Below the pieces are notes generated by a model. That model was not told the origin of the DNA. It did not search any database and was given only the letters and a program-made list of their open reading frames with translations. The translations under genes were made by a program, and so were the position numbers. Positions 16,030-18,132 of a stretch of 33,530 nt of DNA are shown here, piece after piece (the stretch's first letter is position 1; each line of letters begins with the position of its first letter). Origin of the DNA: Candidatus Woesearchaeota archaeon (GTDB lineage: Archaea > Nanobdellota > Nanobdellia > SCGC-AAA011-G17 > JACPIM01); assembly GCA_016188045.1 (NCBI GenBank), contig JACPIM010000004.1, forward strand, positions 72,493 to 106,022. Direction: 5' to 3'.

Positions 16030-16305
16030 CTATCTCCTTCTCTTCCTGGAATTCTTAGCTCTTAACTTCACAACTAAATAATATATCACAGCACCTATAA
16101 CGTGTGTGAATATGATTACTAAAACCCAAACAATTTTTTCTAGATCAGATTTAAATTTTCTAGTAATGGCATCAACCAACATCCATATCCAAAAAATAGC
16201 AAACAATAAAAATATTAAAACTCCACCTAAACCAAAACCCATCATTCCAACAAATGGCCCCCACATAGAGTTACCAACTCCACACCCTAAAAAATTATAT
16301 ACCAT
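16030..16305 (-). CDS. PLDc_N-like small membrane protein
   Basis: The 91-residue protein has two membrane segments, at about residues 22-45 and 57-79. FLLFAIFWIWMLVDAITRKF followed by KIVWVLVIIFTHVIGAVIYYLVV is the pattern of the PLDc_N domain: WxxxxVDxxxR, an intervening W, then GAxxYY. This domain is found at the N-terminus of cardiolipin synthases and also alone in many prokaryotes. Here it stands alone with a glycine-rich N-terminus (GPFVGMMGFGLGG) and a basic tail. The role of stand-alone copies is unclear. It converges on gatA. Confidence 0.72.
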   Translation of the reverse strand: MVYNFLGCGVGNSMWGPFVGMMGFGLGGVLIFLLFAIFWIWMLVDAITRKFKSDLEKIVWVLVIIFTHVIGAVIYYLVVKLRAKNSRKRRR

Positions 16306-16602: not shown

Positions 16603-16644
16603 AAACAAAATCTTTTTAAAACAATCATTAATATTATATCTCAA

Positions 16645-16717
16645 ACCCAGCCCAGTGTGCCATTTATGAATACAGGTTTTACTTGTTATGAATAAGTGGA
16701 TTTAAGAGCTGGGTACA
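16645..16717 (+). ncRNA. H/ACA-box guide sRNA (pseudouridylation guide)
   Basis: The RNA folds into the full archaeal H/ACA plan. Stem P1 is ACCCAGC (16645-16651) with GCTGGGT (16708-16714). The pseudouridylation pocket has an 8-nt left strand (16652-16659) and an 8-nt right strand (16700-16707). Stem P2 is CCATTTAT (16660-16667) with ATAAGTGG (16692-16699). Next come tandem sheared pairs G16668-A16691 and A16669-G16690 of a UGA/GA kink-turn for L7Ae. The apical hairpin is ACAGG-TTTTA-CTTGT. An ACA box (16715-16717) directly follows P1. Pocket to ACA is 15 nt, within the 14-16 nt rule. A TATA-like element at about 16611-16620 would start transcription near 16643. The target is predicted to have UCUUAAAU, then U-N, then CACACUGG. 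It could instead be a leader of the next gene, but the ACA spacing argues for a guide. Confidence 0.78.
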
Positions 16718-16769
16718 TTTTAATAAATAAACACAAATTTTATAAAAGGAGTAACTAAAATTAAATAAA

Positions 16770-17339
16770 ATGCAACAAAAAACAGTCCAACAATACGTTA
16801 CAAAGGATATGACTATGGGGGATATAGTACAAAAATACCCGGCAGCAATAGAAGTAATGCTCTCAAACGGCCTACATTGTATCGGCTGCCATGTTTCTTA
16901 TTGGGAAACTTTAGAACAAGGAACACTAGGCCATGGAATGACAGAGGAGCAGATGAATAAGATGGTAGATGAGATTAATATTGCAATCTCAGAATCAATA
17001 TCTAATACTGAACAAGGAAAACAATTAATTTTAACTAAAAAAGCAACTGACAAATTAAAAAATCTTATCTCAACTCAAAAAAACATAGGGGGACTTAAGA
17101 TAACAGTTTCACCTGGTGGTTGTGCAGGTTATCATTATGATTTTGAATTAACTGATTCTAAAAAGGACAATGATATGATTATAGAAACAGAAGGTGTTAA
17201 AGTTTTCATAGATCAAGAAAGCCTAGATATGATTAAAGGATCAACCATAGATTACGTAGAAGCGTTACAAGGGGCAGGATTTAAAGTTTCTAATCCGCAA
17301 GCAACATCTACTTGTGGTTGCGGACAAAGTTTTTCTTAA
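16770..17339 (+). CDS. DUF1858 - IscA/HesB fusion, putative Fe-S carrier
   Basis: Two domains are joined. Residues about 8-70 are a DUF1858 domain: MTMGDIVQKYPAAIEVM then the CxxC of LHCIGCHVSYWETLEQ (Cys 37 and 40), typical of disulfide or hybrid-cluster-associated small proteins. Residues about 85-189 are an A-type Fe-S carrier. GGLKITVSPGGCAGYHYDFEL holds the first ligand Cys (about 118), and CGCGQSF at the C-terminus holds the two others (about 182 and 184). A-type carriers accept Fe-S clusters and deliver them to apoproteins. The CxxC module may supply electrons or handle sulfur for the cluster; that is inference. The TATA element at about 16735-16745 predicts a short or no leader. A radical SAM protein that needs a 4Fe-4S cluster is encoded 1.7 kb downstream. 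Confidence 0.88.
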   Translation: MQQKTVQQYVTKDMTMGDIVQKYPAAIEVMLSNGLHCIGCHVSYWETLEQGTLGHGMTEEQMNKMVDEINIAISESISNTEQGKQLILTKKATDKLKNLISTQKNIGGLKITVSPGGCAGYHYDFELTDSKKDNDMIIETEGVKVFIDQESLDMIKGSTIDYVEALQGAGFKVSNPQATSTCGCGQSFS

Positions 17340-17826: not shown

Positions 17827-18132
17827 TTAATTAAACAAAACAAGTATAAAACTAGTATTCTTACTAACCTTTATTGAATGAACAACGTTTTTCTTTAAAA
17901 AGATCATAACACCAGACTTCATCTTAATTTCTTCTCCTCCTAAATTAAATATCCCATCTCCTTCCAAAACAAAAACAAAACCTTGTCTAGTAGAGGTATG
18001 TTCTGTTATTTCTGTACCTTCACCAAGACAAAACAAGGTAATATCGTTTTTTTCATCCTTAAAAATCACTTTACTTAATATTCCGCTTTTAGAATACTCT
18101 ATTAATTCTTTAATGTTTTTATAATTCTCCAT
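17827..18132 (-). CDS. Small cupin-domain protein
   Basis: A 101-residue, single-domain cupin. TEHTSTRQGFVFVLEGDGIFNLGGEE covers motif 1, where the second His of HxH is replaced (EHTS), and KSGVMIFLKKNVVHSIKVSKNTSFILVLF covers motif 2 with its His. The metal site is therefore incomplete or differently built. Such small cupins often act as sensors or stabilise an enzyme complex; a substrate cannot be given. The gene lies 78 bp downstream of the TrmB-type regulator gene on the same strand and may be co-transcribed with it. An effector-sensing role beside TrmB is possible but speculative. Confidence 0.75.
   Translation of the reverse strand: MENYKNIKELIEYSKSGILSKVIFKDEKNDITLFCLGEGTEITEHTSTRQGFVFVLEGDGIFNLGGEEIKMKSGVMIFLKKNVVHSIKVSKNTSFILVLFN

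Follow-up and report, generated by a model that had tools for sequence, protein, structure and literature searches.

Single-hairpin box H/ACA guide RNAs have been described in several Euryarchaea, including the Pab and Pf RNAs of Pyrococcus, Afu46 of Archaeoglobus and Hvo1 of Haloferax, and follow a hairpin-pocket-hairpin plan (PMC4652768). Productive Pyrococcus guides have a GA stem of 10 layers and an ACA box at a distance of 14-15 nt, and activity is lost if the stem does not have 10 layers (PMC4652768). Little has been written about guide RNAs in DPANN archaea. The sole DPANN case met in the literature searched is the H/ACA sRNA of N. equitans, a 159-nt RNA of two hairpins with its own box A, a poly-T terminator and a GA-GA kink-turn (PMC3491384). 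In that organism, the box A of sRNA and tRNA genes is TTTAAA and lies 26 nt ahead of the start (PMC3491384). Within the open-access literature that was searched, no paper joins DPANN, pseudouridine and guide RNA.

Here, we describe an H/ACA motif in the form of a single hairpin of 73 bases, read from the sequence on the forward strand at positions 16645-16717 of the window, the whole 33,530-nucleotide stretch of woesearchaeal DNA that was analysed. Based on its fold, ACA box and spacing, its conservation in a second genome, promoter and terminator signals, and the presence of Cbf5 in the genome, we conclude that it is very probably (about 0.9) a genuine gene in its own right, encoding a box H/ACA guide sRNA of the single-hairpin type, with a putative promoter and terminator of its own. 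The gene was unannotated until now; the kind of RNA it encodes is already known. As far as sequence can tell, every testable structural feature of an archaeal H/ACA guide is present.

Folding without prior constraint returns a lower stem (P1) of 7 bp, an open pocket, an upper stem (P2) of 8 bp including one U.G pair, and an apical hairpin (Table 1). The minimum free energy is -26.3 kcal/mol (z = -4.7 against dinucleotide shuffles), and none of 200 shuffles was equally stable. P2 and the tandem G.A pairs together form a GA stem of 10 layers above the pocket, and the pocket-closing pair lies 15 nt from the ACA. The initial annotation had laid out P1, an 8+8 pocket, P2, tandem G-A pairs, an apical hairpin and an ACA at 15 nt, and all of its coordinates are right and agree with the fold. 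Its identification of an archaeal H/ACA guide gains support from the second genome, from the box A and U-run, and from Cbf5.

Table 1. Features of the guide RNA gene and its flanks, in window positions (G033 is the second genome that carries the element)
Feature	Positions	Strand	Basis or remarks
Box A, TATA-like, TTTTTAAAA	16613-16621	+	ends ~24 nt ahead of P1
P1, 5' strand, ACCCAGC	16645-16651	+	sequence, fold; pairs with 16708-16714
Pocket, 5' guide half, CCAGUGUG (8 nt)	16652-16659	+	inner AGUGUG invariant in G033
P2, 5' strand, CCAUUUAU	16660-16667	+	fold; pairs with 16692-16699
Kink-turn GA, non-bulged strand	16668-16669	+	sequence; invariant in G033
Apical hairpin	16670-16689	+	sequence, fold; 3' strand invariant in G033
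Putative 3-nt kink-turn bulge, UAU	16687-16689	+	by-eye reading
Kink-turn GA, bulged strand	16690-16691	+	sequence; invariant in G033
P2, 3' strand, AUAAGUGG	16692-16699	+	fold; U.G here, U-A in G033
Pocket, 3' guide half, AUUUAAGA (8 nt)	16700-16707	+	inner AUUUAA invariant in G033
P1, 3' strand, GCUGGGU	16708-16714	+	fold
ACA box	16715-16717	+	abuts P1; 15 nt to pocket-closing pair; kept in G033
U-run, likely transcription terminator	16718-16721	+	ACAUUUU here, ACAUUUUUU in G033
Separate box A of the DUF1858-IscA gene, TTTTATAAAA	16738-16747	+	sequence

The window RNA shares with the Euryarchaeal single-hairpin guides their overall plan, the 10-layer GA stem, the ACA at 14-15 nt, the kink-turn and the Cbf5 machinery. 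It differs in having a P1 of 7 bp with a 3' guide of 8 nt, whereas the Euryarchaeal guides usually have 9 bp with 5-6 nt. The resulting 10/8/7 layout corresponds to an alternative fold of one Pyrococcus guide, in which the lower stem is opened by two pairs (PMC4652768). It resembles the N. equitans sRNA in its own box A, its terminal U-run and its GA-GA kink-turn, but consists of one hairpin rather than two (PMC3491384).

The RNA lies between pspC (PF04024), which is upstream and on the same strand, and a gene at 16770-17339 in which a DUF1858 domain (PF08984) is fused to an IscA-like Fe-S biogenesis domain (PF01521), as had been stated from the sequence initially. A TATA element had also been proposed that fits a transcript start at P1, and the box A that suits this start is TTTTTAAAA, which is preceded by a BRE-like CAAAATC and is invariant in G033. 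The stretch ACAAAATCTTTTTAAA upstream of the RNA is likewise invariant between the window and G033, and in both TTTTTAAA ends about 22-24 nt ahead of P1. A second motif, ATTATAT at ~16633-16639, is nearer to the RNA, but was rejected as its box A in favour of TTTTTAAAA, which fits the P1 start.

The element was found at 80% identity in one genome among 60 related genomes, the Candidatus Woesearchaeota MAG G033 (contig JACQNH010000063.1), where it reads GCCCAGC / AAGUGUG / CCAUUUAC-GA...GA-AUAAAUGG / AUUUAAAC / GCUGGGC-ACA-UUUUUU. G033 retains the fold (z = -3.9), the upstream box A, the GA/GA motif, the ACA with its 15-nt spacing and the U-run. P1 and P2 are kept in this relative with a few changes: the first P1 pair is A-U in the window and G-C in G033, with both sides changed, and the U.G of P2 is U-A. 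The sole misfit in the P2 of G033 is a C.A pair beside the tandem G.A; in kink-turns, a non-standard pair is often found next to the G.A pairs. The six pocket bases nearest to P2, predicted to touch the target beside the modified uridine, are identical on each side (AGUGUG and AUUUAA), whereas the outer ones next to P1 differ in G033, where one is deleted. Pocket bases adjoining P1 matter least. With only two sequences, and one pair changed on both sides, covariation is weak by itself and its statistic is not significant (269 of 500 shuffles reach it). The weight rests on which parts are conserved.

The two loci also share their surroundings, namely pspC, a minus-strand gene at 16030-16305 and a minus-strand cupin gene at 17827-18132. 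The G033 locus has neither the DUF1858-IscA gene nor the small gene after it, and the convergent cupin gene directly adjoins the end of the RNA. The two loci differ by the insertion or loss of the DUF1858-IscA gene in the interval from the RNA to the cupin gene. The G033 cupin (contig G033:C30) is 78% identical to that of the window, against 53-61% for the remaining close matches within the order. Window and G033 are therefore closer in synteny and sequence than their different families suggest. Because of this unexpected closeness, the 6% contamination of the G033 bin (which contains no rRNA) and the lack of any match to the element in its genus-mate G018, the G033 contig may derive, through bin contamination, from an organism more closely related to that of the window, or may have been transferred recently.

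A lenient descriptor (P1 of at least 6 bp, P2 of 8 with at most one mismatch, GA/GA, ACA at 13-15 nt) gave exactly one match in the window when both strands were scanned. Markov-shuffled windows gave 12 matches in 812 single strands, hence ~0.03 matches are expected per window, and another 371.7 kb of the same genome gave none. Matches of a relaxed descriptor elsewhere in the genome lay mostly within long open frames and folded weakly, and were rejected. A covariance or H/ACA search had been suggested initially as a check: the descriptor part bears the guide out, while Rfam covariance models offered no fitting family, with weak and irrelevant matches only at E up to 10.

In distribution, a model built from the two sequences found the window and G033 only, that is, two of the 103 genomes of the order, and the same two alone among 378 genomes of the class. 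Neither the two genomes of the same family nor most genomes of the order yielded a relative. Because sequence dominates the model, it could overlook guides that share the pocket but have other stems. Across 84,980 species, pattern scanning gave the G033 contig as the sole archaeal match, and the eight other matches were bacterial. Several weak matches of the two-sequence model were treated as chance: that in G032 because it lies in a tandem-repeated stretch with P1 unpaired, and those in G019, G044, G071 and G288 because pocket and kink-turn are not retained together. Also set aside were BLAST matches in G016 and G001, which are short and share only part of the hairpin, without pocket, P1 or ACA.

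Other roles for this hairpin have to be weighed against that of a guide. The RNA lies ~50 nt upstream of the DUF1858-IscA gene on the same strand and might be a cis-acting leader or riboswitch-like element of its mRNA. This is highly improbable, as G033 has the RNA with the cupin gene directly after it and no IscA gene, so the RNA is not part of an IscA mRNA or its leader. A U-run follows the ACA, and the predicted box A TTTTATAAAA of the IscA gene would set its start at the ATG (16770), giving a leaderless transcript. With its own box A and U-run conserved, the leader alternative raised in the initial annotation is disposed of. Very unlikely, too, is a kink-turn or terminator hairpin in the 3' untranslated region of the pspC mRNA, which would be bound by L7Ae or terminate transcription without guiding anything. 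In either genome the RNA does lie downstream of pspC and shares its strand, and L7Ae binds RNA kink-turns and has been suggested to regulate translation (PMC5539422). Yet neither role calls for an 8+8 pocket with invariant inner bases, an ACA abutting P1 at 15 nt or, between pspC and the RNA, a box A that is invariant. Hairpins do arise in AT-rich intergenic DNA, and the reverse strand of this one folds too, but the prospect of a chance hairpin or a mobile inverted-repeat element is close to negligible given a single genomic copy, the low chance expectation and the selective conservation in G033 of precisely the H/ACA parts.

We return to the H/ACA guide and the machinery with which it would work. 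Cbf5, which had been named as a partner, is encoded in the genome, where a search returned it at 435 bits, well above the cut-off, with TruB, DKCLD and PUA domains. For L7Ae and Nop10, a crude motif scan of a third of the genome gave none and is uninformative. Nep1, the methyltransferase that acts on the pseudouridine at 966, was not found in the genome search. In the proposed mechanism, the box A would drive transcription of the RNA gene and the transcript would end in the U-run just past the ACA. Cbf5-Nop10-Gar1 would bind at P1, P2 and the ACA, and L7Ae at the kink-turn. AUUUAA(GA) would then pair with the bases before the target uridine and (CC)AGUGUG with bases starting two after it, so that one rRNA uridine would be converted to pseudouridine.

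The exact bipartite target that had been derived from the pocket, UCUUAAAU-UN-CACACUGG, is absent from the rRNA, of which the 16S was scanned without its first ~83 bases as the gene runs off the contig end. Ranking of rRNA sites, with junction pairs required, gave two near-matches. The best duplex is with 23S UAACGAGU-U-C-CACGCUGU, at the equivalent of E. coli 1984, with -16.5 kcal/mol, an energy reached by 1.7% of Markov-shuffled rRNAs and 3% of shuffled guides. The other is 16S UUUAAU-U-C-CACACAG, which aligns with E. coli 966 and has -11.6 kcal/mol, no better than chance (42-57% of controls reach it). In the organism's own 16S this duplex has 3 + 5 contiguous pairs and 2 more beyond a U.U mismatch. 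Neither candidate satisfies the strict Pyrococcus rules, which set a cut-off of -6 kcal/mol for the 5' duplex and allow no mismatch: the 5' duplexes are weak, with -3.1 kcal/mol and two G.U wobbles for the 23S site, and -1.5 kcal/mol and three pairs before the early U.U for the 16S site.

Further observations bear on the 966 site. The guide core TTAAATTNCACAC has 13 sites with at most one mismatch in the 1.02-Mb genome, and one of them is the 16S-966 site; by simple arithmetic, the chance that one of 13 lands in the rRNA sense strand is ~3%. With the 16S of G044 (UUGGAU-U-C-UACAC), the guide core forms 6 + 5 pairs including wobbles. When six 16S sequences were scanned with column averages, 966 did not stand out: for 38 of 60 shuffled guides the best site attained the mean of the 966 column, although none of the 60 fitted the 966 site as well. 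The position is known to be modified elsewhere: the Saccharolobus equivalent, 930, carries m1acp3-pseudouridine (PMC11698992), the eukaryotic equivalent is pseudouridine-derived, with snR35 as its guide, and that of Haloferax is acp3U (PMC7694415, PMC2584109). If the 966 target is right, the window RNA and snR35 (which guides pseudouridine 1191 of 18S) would share rRNA position and chemistry (PMC7694415). Unlike the window RNA, snR35 is a two-hairpin snoRNA without a kink-turn (PMC7991803); homology is not claimed.

On this evidence the 16S uridine equivalent to E. coli 966 is a tentative candidate target, well short of even odds, and the 23S uridine equivalent to 1984 is an unlikely one. At a little below even odds, the target is some other rRNA site or no rRNA site at all. 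A related reading, that of an H/ACA guide whose substrate is a tRNA or mRNA, or of an orphan, is on balance doubtful. The strict Pyrococcus rules single out no rRNA site, and a further 12 places in the genome fit the guide core with a single mismatch, which would suit such a substrate; against this, the remaining one of the 13 is in rRNA and coincides with a position known for its modification, and the 14 tRNAs recovered contain no convincing two-sided site. Matches of the guide halves to rRNA or tRNA, as initially anticipated, amount to two near-matches in rRNA and none that convinces in these tRNAs.

The rRNA and tRNA genes show several peculiarities of their own. The helix-31 loop of 16S, around E. 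coli 966 (G000:C14:93427-93439, L024-L028), varies strongly within the order, and the 16S of G019 has A, not U, at the aligned modified position. The 23S genes are long, with 3474 nt here (G000:C14:88978-92451, minus strand) against 2987 in the archaeal model and 4031 nt in a same-family relative (G001:C6:16438-20468). That of this genome has an apparent insertion just ahead of a conserved AGCGAAAUACC stretch. The extra length probably reflects rRNA introns or expansion segments. Many tRNA genes here appear to have introns of differing lengths (L040-L042, L046-L051), and only 14 tRNAs pass the Rfam search in a genome that is 92.6% complete; the remaining ones may be split or heavily interrupted.

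The guide sequence of this RNA yields a clear prediction as to the rRNA uridine that it would modify. That the RNA guides pseudouridine formation at the P-site uridine U966 of 16S, in a woesearchaeal lineage apparently without Nep1, is an unlikely yet specific proposal. If true, it would represent an snR35-like step of the archaeal and eukaryotic hypermodification pathway, carried out by a fast-evolving guide that was lost or replaced in relatives. The 73-nt RNA can also serve as a seed for finding further DPANN guides. Being clearly delimited and encoded in a woesearchaeal genome of 1 Mb, it suggests that reduced genomes retain RNA-guided pseudouridylation.
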